Positions 13,653-31,561 of a DNA stretch of 40,158 nt are shown piece after piece. This DNA comes from Flavobacteriales bacterium (GTDB taxonomy: Bacteria > Bacteroidota > Bacteroidia > Flavobacteriales_E > Vicingaceae). The stretch spans positions 1 to 40,158 of the forward strand of contig JADYZM010000054.1 in NCBI GenBank assembly GCA_020853105.1. Direction: 5' to 3'. A model generated the notes under the pieces. The model saw nothing but the letters and a program-made list of their open reading frames with translations, was not told where the DNA came from and ran no database searches. The stretch's first letter is position 1; each line of letters starts with the position of its first letter. Position numbers and translations under genes: made by a program.

Positions 13653-14081
13653 TCAGTGATTAGATTTTAGATTTTCAGCAACAAATCGTACACAATAGTC
13701 TTTAATTTGCTGTCTGACTTGTCTAAACTGGTTGTTTATTTCCTCGCCTGAGCCTGTTGCTTTTGCTGGGTCAGGAAAATTTTGATGAAACTTCTTTGCT
13801 TTGGTAGGGAAGTATGGACAACGCTCTTTAGCATTGTCGCAAACTGTAATAACAAAATCAAAATCTATATGTCGGTACTCGTCAATATTGTTTGAAGTGT
13901 GATTTGAAATATCTATGTCGTCTTCTTGCATTGTTGCAATCGCTTTTGGGTTTACTCCGTGCGTTTCAACTCCTGCACTGTAAACTTCTGCATTTTCGTT
14001 TGCAAAGTGTCGTAAATAACCTTCAGCTATCTGGCTTCTACAACTGTTCCCTGTGCAAAGCACTAAAATTTTCTTTGTCAT
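13653..14081 (-). CDS. arsC: Arsenate reductase, low-molecular-weight phosphatase type
   Basis: 142 residues. The P-loop C9-TGNSC14-R15-S is followed by the Cys pair C81/C88 in TVCDNAKERCPYFP and an FPDPA motif, which together are the mark of thioredoxin-coupled arsenate reductases rather than ordinary tyrosine phosphatases. It reduces arsenate to arsenite. It follows the arsM remnant by 3 bp. No arsenite efflux pump is left next to it; the nearest metalloid transporters are those at 23139-25711. Confidence 0.9.
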   Translation of the reverse strand: MTKKILVLCTGNSCRSQIAEGYLRHFANENAEVYSAGVETHGVNPKAIATMQEDDIDISNHTSNNIDEYRHIDFDFVITVCDNAKERCPYFPTKAKKFHQNFPDPAKATGSGEEINNQFRQVRQQIKDYCVRFVAENLKSNH

Positions 14082-14084
14082 AGT

Positions 14085-14391
14085 TTAGCAACAGCCCGAA
14101 TTTGGCGAGCAACAAGCTGTTGGTTTTTCTGCATAAACCGTTATACTTCTAATGATCGTTTCGTTTGATTTGTATTGAGCAATTTCATCATCATTCAAAT
14201 AGTTTTTCAGAATGTCGTCAGGTACAATGATTGGTTTGTCTTTCTGAATTTGCATATTGACAAACCCCACTTTGCTTACATAACTCAAATATTCATCTTT
14301 ATCAATCGCACTTGCTACACAACCAGCATACATTTCAGCCGCAGATTTTATTTTGTTGGTCTGTAAAGTGGTCTGTTTTAGTTGCACCCAT
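14085..14391 (-). pseudogene. Deletion scar: first codons of arsR joined to the 3' end of arsM
   Basis: From ATG at 14391 the frame reads MGATKTDHFTDQQNKICG and stops. This matches the N-terminus of Bacteroidota ArsR proteins (compare MPSITKNDYFTKEQ of the intact ArsR at 26754). In another frame, open from a GTG at 14387 to 14085, the sequence KIKSAAEMYAGCVASAIDKDEY...VGFVNMQIQKDKP ending in TACCSPNSGCC is the C-terminal part of arsenite methyltransferase ArsM; its methyltransferase core is absent. An internal deletion with a junction near AATAAAAT explains both. Neither product can function. Confidence 0.75.
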
Positions 14392-14408
14392 TATTTTATT
14401 TATTTAAT

Positions 14409-14424
14409 ATTGAAATATTACGAT
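14409..14424. promoter_or_regulatory. Orphan ArsR-type operator
   Basis: ATTGAAATATTACGAT is an imperfect palindrome (12 of 16 positions symmetric) with the same AATATTACG core as the perfect operator at 26416-26433. It lies 18 bp upstream of the arsR remnant start, where an autoregulatory site is expected. It may still bind the other ArsR and control arsC. Confidence 0.5.
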
Positions 14425-14529
14425 GAAGATTTGAATGATAAAATAATTTTTATTGTTTTTTAAAATTGAATTTTATTGATGATATGAAGTTTAGTCAGGC
14501 TGTTTTATGTCTGCCTGTTGATTTTAGCA

Positions 14530-14583
14530 AGGTGGTGTGAGAGGCACACTCTGTCAAAAACTGGCTGAACCGTCTATTTGATT
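14530..14583 (+). mobile_element. Probable 3' end of a group II intron
   Basis: GGTGGTGTGAGAGGCACACTC followed by a small stem and CCGTCTATTTGATT resembles the region after domain V through domain VI of bacterial group II introns, which end in CTAnnYGATT. Upstream intron parts and the reverse transcriptase are absent. It points along the plus strand, opposite to the neighbouring genes. The base after the putative 3' end starts AGCTACAG, identical to the terminus of the cassette repeat at 17423-17433. Recognition is from memory of such introns, without alignment. Confidence 0.45.
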
Positions 14584-14596
14584 AGCTACAGTTTTT

Positions 14597-15016
14597 TTAT
14601 TCAAATATATCTTCTTTGTCGAGATTGTTTATTGAATTTTTTCTTGCCCAAAGGAAAAAAGCAAAGTGTATGAGAAGAGAAATTCCCCAAAGAACTGCTG
14701 CCATAATTGAAACACTTAAATTTTCGTGTTTTGAACCTAATCCAAATCCAATCCACAAAAGAGATATTCCATTGTGAATTAAATAAGTTGTCAGATGAAA
14801 CCTAAAACCAATATCGTATATTGGTAAATATTCGCCATCTTTTCGTCCAAAATACCAACCAGAGGCAAACATAAGTAATCCGTATGTTGCTGCTGAAATA
14901 GCAATTATAATTCCTGATTGTTTTTCAATCCCATAACTCAAAAAATATCTGAATATTATGGTCAATACAGTTACAGCTAATGCAAATCTCAATAAATATG
15001 GTGTAATTGTTTTCAT
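14597..15016 (-). CDS. Small integral membrane protein, function unknown
   Basis: 139 residues with four predicted membrane helices (about 7-25, 35-53, 72-95 and 102-125) separated by short loops; the middle loop contains GRKDGEYLPIYDIGFRFH. I do not recognise a family. Its ATG overlaps the stop of the PadR regulator gene (ATGA). Small membrane proteins paired with PadR regulators are often the regulated target; here that is inference from coupling. Confidence 0.72.
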   Translation of the reverse strand: MKTITPYLLRFALAVTVLTIIFRYFLSYGIEKQSGIIIAISAATYGLLMFASGWYFGRKDGEYLPIYDIGFRFHLTTYLIHNGISLLWIGFGLGSKHENLSVSIMAAVLWGISLLIHFAFFLWARKNSINNLDKEDIFE

Positions 15017-16240: not shown

Positions 16241-16352
16241 TAACGTTTGCAGATTTGCGATGGGCGGGATTTTTACCACTAAACTTGATACGAAGTACAA
16301 CGCTTGATTTAACCACTGAACCGCCAATTTCTTGTAGGTGCTGTTACCAGTA
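16241..16352 (-). repeat. Cassette repeat copy C (attC-like)
   Basis: Starts TAACG and ends GTTACCAGTA. The internal core GATTTTTACCACTAAACTTG and AACCACTGAACCGCC is shared with copies E and F. Stem pairing is weak beyond GGCGG/CCGCC. Its right end is the exact reverse complement of 17296-17305, the start of the TerB/BRCT cassette. Confidence 0.65.
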
Positions 16353-22218: not shown

Positions 22219-22354
22219 TGTAGCTAACGTTTTGGCGCTTGGCGAAGGTGGCGATTTTCACCACAAATGTTGATGCGGAGAACCAAACTTTGATTAACCA
22301 CTAATGTGGCTGCGGAGCACTGAACCGCCACTTTTGCCAAACGCCTGTTATGCC
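22219..22354 (-). repeat. Cassette repeat copy E (attC-like)
   Basis: TAACG at 22225 and GTTATGCC at 22347. Stem: GGCG (22234-22237) with CGCC (22342-22345), TTGGC (22239-22243) with GCCAA (22336-22340), GTGGCG (22248-22253) with CGCCAC (22326-22331). The core has CACCACAAATGTTGATGCGG and AACCACT, shared with C and F. Together with the hairpin at 22405-22482 it fills the gene-free stretch 22101-22491. Confidence 0.8.
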
Positions 22355-22404
22355 TTCGCCCTTCTTTTTCTGTCGAGTAGTTGTCTGTCAATTTTGGTCT
22401 GTCT

Positions 22405-26386: not shown

Positions 26387-26433
26387 GTTCGCAAATGTAC
26401 GAACAATTATTCGTAGTTCGTAATATTACGAAC
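26387..26433 (-). promoter_or_regulatory. ArsR operators and promoter of the thioredoxin-permease operon
   Basis: Three overlapping or adjacent palindromes: GTTCG-N8-CGAAC (26387-26404), TACGAA-N6-TTCGTA (26398-26415) and the perfect 18 bp GTTCGTAATATTACGAAC (26416-26433). The first contains, on the minus strand, TACATTTG (26392-26399), a -7 element, 28 bp from the start codon at 26363. A bound ArsR dimer would cover the promoter. Confidence 0.75.
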
Positions 26434-26448
26434 AAAATGTTAAAAAAA

Positions 26449-26754
26449 TTATTTAAATACTTTGTTTAACAATGATTTAGCGAGTGCAAAATTTTCTCGG
26501 TTGATGCAGTACTTTGTTGACGGTGGTGTAATATCGCCTTGAATTAAACCTGCGTCTTTCAATTCATTCAAGTGTTGAGAAAGGGTTGATTTAGCAATTG
26601 GAAGCTCTTCTGCCATATCACCGTGATAGCAACAAGCCTTAGAATTGAGTAATTCTAAAATGGCAATTCGGACTGGATGTCCTAAGGCTTTCGCAAACCT
26701 TGCAGTCTGTTCTTGTTCTTTCGTGAAATAATCGTTTTTAGTAATGCTTGGCAT
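26449..26754 (-). CDS. arsR: ArsR-family metalloregulator
   Basis: 101 residues, winged helix: AKALGHPVRIAILELLNSKACCYHGDMAEELPIAKSTLSQHLNELKDAGLIQG. The pair CC in KACCYHGD lies at the start of the helix where metalloid-binding cysteines occur in Bacteroidota ArsR proteins. It represses in the absence of metalloid. Operators lie upstream of itself (26771-26788) and of the next gene (26387-26433), so two promoters should respond together. Confidence 0.88.
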   Translation of the reverse strand: MPSITKNDYFTKEQEQTARFAKALGHPVRIAILELLNSKACCYHGDMAEELPIAKSTLSQHLNELKDAGLIQGDITPPSTKYCINRENFALAKSLLNKVFK

Positions 26755-26770
26755 CTTTCATCTTTTTATT

Positions 26771-26788
26771 GTTCGCAAAGGTACGAAC
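26771..26788 (-). promoter_or_regulatory. ArsR operator with embedded -7 element, autoregulatory
   Basis: GTTCGCAAAGGTACGAAC, 17 bp upstream of arsR, differs at one base from the site at 26387-26404. On the minus strand it contains TACCTTTG (26776-26783), a -7 element. Confidence 0.7.
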
Positions 26789-26983: not shown

Positions 26984-26990
26984 AGGGTGA

Positions 26991-27125
26991 GGCATAACGT
27001 TTCGGGGGTTTGCGATGGCGGGGAGTTTTAGCACTAAACTTTATTCGGAGAACTGAACTTCCACTTTGCACAAATGTCTCTGCGAAGCACGGAACCCCCG
27101 CTATCGCAAACCCCATGTTAGCGGC
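26991..27125 (-). repeat. Cassette repeat copy F (attC-like)
   Basis: TAACG at 26995 and GTTAGCGGC at 27117. Stem: GGGGTTTGCGAT (27005-27016) pairs exactly with ATCGCAAACCCC (27103-27114); GCGGGG (27018-27023) pairs with CCCCGC (27096-27101), with one unpaired base between the two helices. The core TAGCACTAAACTTTATTCGG and CTGCGAAGCAC is shared with E. Confidence 0.85.
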
Positions 27126-27866
27126 TGGTTTTTTCAAAACCCGACAGTTGTTATTCTTTGTTTTAGTTTACCATTCGCTACTATCCATAAAACTTCATAA
27201 CCACCTGCTCCGTCACTATTCGAAGCAGAAATATAAATTGTTCTATTTTTCGTGTCAATATTAACTATTGTGTTATCTAAGTTTGGTTCGAACAAATTGT
27301 CAATTGGGAGATATATTCTATTCTTTCCCAAGGTTAAAGTGATTTGCCCGTATTGGTTTTTAGGAACATCTCCGTCCGTCCCCCATATTTCTTTTCCATT
27401 TATTTTTTCCAAATAACTCATTTGGTTTTTTGATGTATCTCCCTTATGATATTGCAACTTATTGTTCTTTGGTTGGAATTTCGTTTTGGTAACGATTAGT
27501 TTTATTGAATCTTTTTTAAAACTAATTGAAGAATCAGTTAAGTTATGATAAGGTATTTTGTCAAAGTCTTTTAAAAATTTCACTCTTGAATTATGAATGT
27601 AACCACTTTTCCTTTGTCTATTAAAATCGTAGTCAATTGGACGCCATTCTCCTTCTGCTTCCAAACAAAATACGATTTGTCCGTTAGTCAATGTGTCAAC
27701 AATATTGTTTGAAATGTTAGGTGAATTTCTGACGTTTACAAAACCGTCTTTGTCCGCAATAATTCCAAACTGTCCGAATGCTGTTTGACTAAAAATGCAG
27801 GTTAGTATTATTAAAAATTCTCTCATTATTTATGTGTCTTTCGTGTCTTCATAAACTTGCCGCTAA
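26998..27866 (-). mobile_element. Intact gene cassette: SH3 protein
   Basis: Starts with GCCGCTAAC (plus strand 27859-27867), the exact reverse complement of GTTAGCGGC (27117-27125) at the distal end of its own repeat. One gene, 0.87 kb, a normal cassette size. Confidence 0.7.
27134..27826 (-). CDS. Secreted SH3-domain protein
   Basis: 230 residues. Signal peptide about 1-18 (FLIILTCIFSQTAFGQ). A bacterial SH3 domain follows (GFVNVRNSPNISNNIVDTLTNGQIVFCLEAEGEWRPIDY...GYIHNSRVKFL). The rest, including a segment with INGKEIWGTDGDVPKNQYGQI and ITLTLGKNRIYLP, is unrecognised. SH3 domains of this type often bind peptidoglycan or proteins. It is the only gene of its cassette. Confidence 0.8.
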   Translation of the reverse strand: MREFLIILTCIFSQTAFGQFGIIADKDGFVNVRNSPNISNNIVDTLTNGQIVFCLEAEGEWRPIDYDFNRQRKSGYIHNSRVKFLKDFDKIPYHNLTDSSISFKKDSIKLIVTKTKFQPKNNKLQYHKGDTSKNQMSYLEKINGKEIWGTDGDVPKNQYGQITLTLGKNRIYLPIDNLFEPNLDNTIVNIDTKNRTIYISASNSDGAGGYEVLWIVANGKLKQRITTVGF

Positions 27867-30295: not shown

Positions 30296-30310
30296 TTGAA
30301 AATTAAAGGA

Positions 30311-30802
30311 ATGAAGAAAGAGTATAAAGATAAATTAATGTGGGCAGCTCAAAATAAAGCCGAGTTGAGTTCTTTGAACAATAAACTAAAAAAAACCAAG
30401 CCCAATAAATTAGATGAAGTTGCTCATCGGTCACACGATAATGCTTTTAAGAAAATTGATTGTTTGCAGTGTGCAAATTGTTGCAAAACAATAAGTCCTG
30501 CAATTTACGAAAGGGATATTGACCGCCTTGCCAAACACTTGAGAATAAAGCCATCTGCATTCATTGATGCATACTTGTTAAAAGATGAAGTTGGTGATTA
30601 TGTAATGAAATCTCAACCTTGCCCTTTTTTGGATAGTGAAAATTATTGCATGGTTTATGAAAGTCGTCCAACAGCTTGCCGCGAATATCCACATACCGAC
30701 AGAAAACGATTTTTCCAATTGTTAGATTTATCGTTAAAGAACACAGAAATCTGCCCGGCAGTTGCAGATGTATTTCAAGAATTAAAAAAGGTATATTCTT
30801 AA
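30311..30802 (+). CDS. YkgJ-family cysteine-cluster protein
   Basis: About 163 residues from ATG at 30311, which follows AAAGGA; a TTG at 30296 is an alternative. The cluster CLQCANCC begins the metal-binding region, followed by PCPFLDSENYCMVYESRPTACREYPHTD. The eight or so cysteines probably hold a zinc or Fe-S site. It follows mnmD directly and may be co-transcribed; function is unknown. Confidence 0.83.
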   Translation: MKKEYKDKLMWAAQNKAELSSLNNKLKKTKPNKLDEVAHRSHDNAFKKIDCLQCANCCKTISPAIYERDIDRLAKHLRIKPSAFIDAYLLKDEVGDYVMKSQPCPFLDSENYCMVYESRPTACREYPHTDRKRFFQLLDLSLKNTEICPAVADVFQELKKVYS

Positions 30803-30805
30803 GGA

Positions 30806-31561
30806 TTATTTATTTTCCAGATATTCTTTGTGGCATTTTTGGATTTGAACCACAATCTCGTATTCAGTTGATTTAGCAATGAACTCATCACTAAAATCGC
30901 AAAAGAGCATAAACTTTGTAATTTCTTCGGGAATAGATATTTGAGTTGCATTTTGCACCAGAATATTATTGTATTTTGTTGCTAAAAAAGAGTTGTATCT
31001 GTCTTGTGCTAGCAATTCTTCATATCGTTTGTAGCTTTTGGCTTGCTTACTGAATAAATTGTAAAGAGCTGTTATGGGTCCGTCAAGAGTAACTCCTGCA
31101 CCTTGATTCATCTTTGAATATAAAAACAAACTATTTTTAAGAATAAACATACTGTTTTCAATTGTTTGTGTTGAATCTATTAATGAAAAATCAATTATGG
31201 CTTTTTTGAAATCTTCGTAATTTTTATAGGGAAAAATGGTTACAGTTTCAAGGGTGTAGCTGCGAGGCTCCATAAAAATTTGAGAAGGAATTTCAGTAGC
31301 ACTATATTTTAAAGATTCAAAACCCACCACTGAAAAAATTAATGTGTCGGTAATTCCTACCCGAAAATTAAAAGTTCCGTTGTTTTCACTGATAACTCCA
31401 TGTCGTGAAGAAATATTTAGAACATGAACAAAACCAATAGGAGTAGAATCTTTTTTACTTAAAATAGTACAATTCAAATCAATTTGATTGAATTGTGAGT
31501 ATGTAGGTTGTAGAATTATACACCAAAACAGTAAAAACAGTTGAACTTTATATGTATTCAC
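30806..31561 (-). CDS. Exported protein with carboxypeptidase-regulatory-like domain
   Basis: 251 residues. Signal peptide about 1-22. Residues 28-105 form a CarboxypepD_reg-like beta sandwich: LNCTILSKKDSTPIGFVHVLNISSRHGVISENNGTFNFRV...VVGFESLKYS, the domain also found before TonB-dependent receptors. The rest is helical with no family recognised. It probably acts in the periplasm or outer membrane. The convergent YkgJ gene ends 3 bp away. Confidence 0.78.
   Translation of the reverse strand: MNTYKVQLFLLFWCIILQPTYSQFNQIDLNCTILSKKDSTPIGFVHVLNISSRHGVISENNGTFNFRVGITDTLIFSVVGFESLKYSATEIPSQIFMEPRSYTLETVTIFPYKNYEDFKKAIIDFSLIDSTQTIENSMFILKNSLFLYSKMNQGAGVTLDGPITALYNLFSKQAKSYKRYEELLAQDRYNSFLATKYNNILVQNATQISIPEEITKFMLFCDFSDEFIAKSTEYEIVVQIQKCHKEYLENK

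Follow-up and report, generated by a model that had tools for sequence, protein, structure and literature searches.

The window, that is, the whole stretch of 40,158 nucleotides of Flavobacteriales DNA analyzed here, contains on its minus strand three adjacent pieces of an arsenic operon. The intact one is arsC (13653..14081), encoding a putative arsenate reductase of the thioredoxin-type (pI258) family. It matches positions 2-125 of the 129 in model TIGR02691 (E = 4.1e-47, 159.6 bits against a curated cut-off of 174.3) and is the sole strong arsC match in the genome. The second piece (14085..14354) is the end of arsM, comprising the last 89 codons and the stop codon, which lies 3 nt before the arsC ATG. 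It contains no stops or indels and has 93% amino acid identity to arsM of a Saprospiraceae locus, L002. The third piece (14391–14350) represents the 5' end of a Bacteroidota arsR. Its ATG is at 14391-14389, and the frame (14335..14391) reads MGATKTDHFTDQQNKICG, ending after 18 codons with a TGA at 14337-14335. Upstream are a degenerate ArsR operator (14406..14419, minus strand) and a truncated group II intron tail (14527..14598, plus strand) that borders the ars segment.

Related loci were collected in a genome-wide search, which yielded 80 of them, and in a search of 149 relatives, which added more. The closest are L002 (Saprospiraceae MAG), L003 (Chitinophagaceae MAG), L004 (Bacteroidia MAG), L005, L006 (Moheibacter), L007, L008, and L083. 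In each of these, arsR is intact, with a product of 108 aa (in L007 the ORF has 124 aa), and arsM encodes ~279 aa. In L002 and L004, arsC directly follows arsM, as in the window; in L003, L006, L007, and L008 acr3 is placed between them, accompanied by an OsmC-like gene in L006-L008 (both names were read by eye from translated ORFs). Compared with the intact loci by BLASTN, the window splits into two pieces. The first extends from 14539 or lower to 14344 and covers the arsR promoter and start, while the second extends from 14354 downward through the arsM end and, for L002 and L004, continues into arsC within one alignment. Up to 11 bases of the window are common to both pieces, which are ~875 bp apart in the relatives; the corresponding parts of arsR and arsM are separated by ~880–890 bp in eight close relatives, within the intact arsR–arsM pair. 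The segment missing from the window measures 888 bp in comparison with the two closest loci, L003 and L004, as well as with L006 and L083, and 883-891 bp over the exactly measured loci, L004 and seven more, with a similar BLASTN gap in L007. It takes in the bulk of arsR and the 5' two thirds of arsM.

The junction (14344..14354, minus strand) contains a 5-bp microhomology, AAAAT (14350-14354), that can be extended to AAAATNAAATC with 10 of 11 matches. In L003 and L004 the missing segment is bounded on both sides by AAAAT, and by AAAATNAAATC with one mismatch, and one copy of AAAAT is left in the window. Among arsR/arsM breakpoint pairs drawn at random in L004, 0.8% have a stretch of at least 5 bp in common. 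The frames of arsR and arsM differ in the intact operon too, and a loss of 888 bp, a multiple of three, leaves them out of frame with each other. Thus, the proposal of the first-pass annotation that a deletion scar with microhomology joins arsR to arsM is borne out by the two-piece alignment and by AAAAT at both ends; the alignment with intact related loci that it suggested as a check revealed both the deleted part and the microhomology. It had further assigned 16 codons to the ArsR N-terminus. The arsR start is real, the N-terminus being identical or nearly so in L002-L006, L008, and L083, but only ~14 codons are certainly derived from arsR, with the breakpoint in AAAAT; residues 15-16 are Q15 I16 in intact ArsR versus K15 I16 in the window.

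Relatives do not carry the same short frames as conserved separate genes: arsM is essentially full-length in 108 of 109 related loci, 87 of which have an arsR in the same orientation no more than 600 bp away, and the single partial arsM starts at a contig edge. In a search of 395 genomes of the class, not one match spans the junction in the way the window does. Close matches stop or start at query positions 147-157, and wherever both halves are present in the close relatives, ~0.9 kb lies between them. The junction 21-mer is also absent from the viral contigs searched. Hence we are highly confident that the locus has undergone a microhomology deletion, found in no other genome searched, that removed the functions of arsR and arsM and spared arsC.

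With ~14 of the 108 arsR codons left before the stop, the winged helix and the metal-binding cysteines are missing, and the remnant fails as a functional repressor. The old ArsR-like operator, noticed by the first-pass annotation at 14409-14424, is still recognizable and is better placed at 14406-14419. It reads AATATTTCAATATT, compared with the palindrome AATATTGCAATATT in intact relatives. Just upstream of 40 intact arsR starts from the fetched loci, some of which may be duplicates, this element is AATATTGCAATAT in 39 cases and AATATTGTAATAT in one. The T at the dyad center occurs only in the window (0 of 40 intact copies); judging from this one base, the change fits relaxed selection after repressor loss.

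The genome contains one other close ArsR, here called ArsR2 (26449..26754, minus strand), which is intact and 48% identical to the intact ArsR of L002. The first-pass annotation had suggested that the remaining arsC may now be controlled by this second regulator, which would have to act at the old operator; this reading competes with ours only for the regulatory consequence of the deletion and not for the scar. Similar recognition helices (AKSTLSQHLNELKDAGLI versus AQPTVSQHLKELKNAGLI) and a 10-mer in common, TCGTAATATT, speak for it. However, three inverted repeats that, by their position and symmetry, are likely ArsR2 operators, one upstream of the ArsR2 gene and two before the thioredoxin gene (26387-26404, 26416-26433, and 26771-26788), have in common the arms GTTCG...CGAAC, which are missing from the scar operator. 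The consensus GTTCGYAANNKTACGAAC was derived from these three sites, which therefore fit it perfectly by definition; the best-matching position at the scar deviates at 6 of the 16 specified positions, a score equaled at ~217 positions of the window. The scar thus has no good counterpart of the presumed ArsR2 sites, and a takeover of arsC by ArsR2 is unlikely.

The ArsR2 gene belongs to a segment at 22.2-26.8 kb, in which the frames for an ArsE-like thioredoxin, a rhodanese, an ArsP_1 permease, a DinB-like protein, an ArsF-like protein, a DsbD-type membrane protein, and FmdE are open as well. The ArsE-like and ArsF-like proteins match TIGR00412 and NF040494, respectively, above the cut-offs. 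The description of this segment as organoarsenical is a fair guess from the family names. Both ends of the ArsR2-ArsP-FmdE segment carry imperfect long palindromic intergenic sequences, seen by eye at 22220-22370 and 26985-27130 (TAACGTTT...GTTA-like ends), that resemble cassette boundaries.

What is left of detectable arsenic genes in the whole genome (2.87 Mb, 88 contigs) is the reductase and this one segment with its ArsP-family permease, the only one in the genome (24746-25642); neither an Acr3 nor an ArsB pump was detected. No second arsM was found, only generic methyltransferases at weak scores; therefore, the lost methyltransferase is the only detectable ArsM of the genome. The earlier statement that the locus lost its ArsR and arsenite methylation and kept arsC is in line with these data. 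The remaining doubt about the deletion is mainly that of an assembly error, in which the true genome has an intact arsR-arsM-arsC operon and the assembler dropped ~890 bp. The fragmentation of the assembly into 88 contigs is compatible with such an error, but at 5-11 bp the overlap at the junction is below the k-mer lengths typically used in assembly, the missing piece does not appear elsewhere in the assembly as another arsM or close arsR fragment, and the genome is estimated to be 100% complete. An artifact is thus very improbable.

Only the C-terminal third of the 279 ArsM codons is kept, beginning at residue 191. According to the alignment to solved arsenic methyltransferases, the deleted part holds the SAM-binding motif DLGSGAGNDCF (near residue 82) and the SNCV cysteine Cys152, and of two cysteines aligned with conserved positions only Cys202 is kept. 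With the SAM-binding Rossmann domain and the SNCV cysteine gone, the remnant fails as a functional ArsM, and from the established enzyme architecture we infer that it cannot be a methyltransferase. It may be read as a 100-aa ORF (14387-14085) with a GTG start at 14387 and a stop at 14087-14085, the C-terminal part of which aligns (E = 9.7e-16) to residues 192-271 of NF008823, a 272-residue model for arsenite methyltransferase. The open 100 codons, the lack of stops and indels in the remnant, and the end of the frame immediately before arsC could indicate a functional small protein that keeps the ArsM C-terminal domain, e.g., for arsenite binding or for translational coupling to arsC. Yet the losses listed above leave Cys202 alone of the conserved pair, this form is absent from all other genomes searched, and no constraint is seen in the window-specific changes, two synonymous and two non-synonymous in the remnant (11 and 6, respectively, in arsC). 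We regard a functional small protein as highly doubtful. Under neutral change, the chance of finding no stop in the remnant is 87% at 1% substitution and 29% at 10%; an attempt to show or date decay by substitution counts was dropped, as the changes are too few. The simplest reading of a stop-free, indel-free remnant is that the deletion is recent, and weak constraint via translation into arsC is possible. That the out-of-frame join made a translated 100-aa leader coupling arsC translation, selected together with repressor loss, and that the deletion is thereby an adaptive change to constitutive arsenate reduction in which methylation is given up, is scarcely credible.

The SDR-YkuD genes beside the ars segment (11.05-12.54 kb) are common to genomes of the same genus, and the DNA match to these genomes ends there, which is consistent with horizontal acquisition of the segment. 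Horizontal transfer of arsM is recurrent and well established (PMC5552862). A genome of the same genus, G001, has an intact arsR-arsM-acr3-(arsC-like) operon (L166 4348-7180; genes named by eye from translations) exactly between homologs of the window genes 30296-30802 and 30806-31561, where the window has 3 bp (30802-30806). At the other border of the ars segment, homology to the intact loci L003, L004, and L083 ends at 14539, within the intron tail. Sister copies of this tail elsewhere in the genome are recognized by RF00029 with scores at or slightly under its gathering threshold, and the window copy is not. The copies are scattered through the genome, with three in 2.4 kb of one contig (C47). 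The alternative assignment of 14527-14598 to an integron attC site was rejected because the sister copies instead fit the group II intron family; the genome's hits to integron integrases all score well below the cut-off. In the E. coli plasmid NZ_CP038140.1, a 68-bp stretch (L131 3001-3068) with 79% identity to the intron tail follows the tet(X4) stop codon at a distance of 5 bp and may be a trace of the Bacteroidota origin of tet(X4). Another repeat, of ~70 bp (16277-16345), has many copies in this and same-genus genomes (80-94% identity).

The following scenario may be proposed. The arsR-arsM-arsC segment was probably acquired horizontally. It then suffered a single deletion of ~888 bp between AAAAT in arsR codons 13-14 and AAAAT at approximately arsM codon 190, for which slipped mispairing or end joining is the probable mechanism. 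As a consequence, As(III)-controlled repression of the operon and arsenite methylation would be lost, and the old promoter is predicted to drive arsC constitutively. The 100-codon frame, open up to the start of arsC, may continue to feed ribosomes into this gene. The locus provides a clean example of arsenic operon decay, with the repressor and the methyltransferase gone in one step and arsC spared. For annotation pipelines, it means that an arsM fragment of this kind should not be counted as arsenic methylation capacity.

A search of the literature on arsM pseudogenes and on the Sao system gave nothing useful, and the comparison with known systems involves three cases. The first is the Bacteroidota operons of the arsR-arsM-arsC (L002, L004) and arsR-arsM-(OsmC)-acr3-arsC types. 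They have in common with the window the gene order, the operator, the arsR start, the arsM end, and arsC, with 81-90% DNA identity in the surviving part of arsM; the window differs in the missing ~888 bp and the lack of acr3. The second is ArsR^M of Brevundimonas sp. M20, a natural functional in-frame fusion of ArsR and a methyltransferase, 960 bp long, with both domains (PMC10190100). Here, as in the window, an ArsR start and a methyltransferase are coded in one stretch. However, ArsR^M is joined in frame and keeps both domains, whereas in the window the join is out of frame, both domains are destroyed, and the differing frames and the TGA leave no single open frame of the ArsR^M type. The third is microhomology-mediated deletion by slipped mispairing or alternative end joining, which the scar resembles in that a short repeat flanked the one deleted segment and a single copy of it is left. 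Nothing in its size or sequence is unusual for such events; in kind, the scar is ordinary gene loss and raises no new mechanism.
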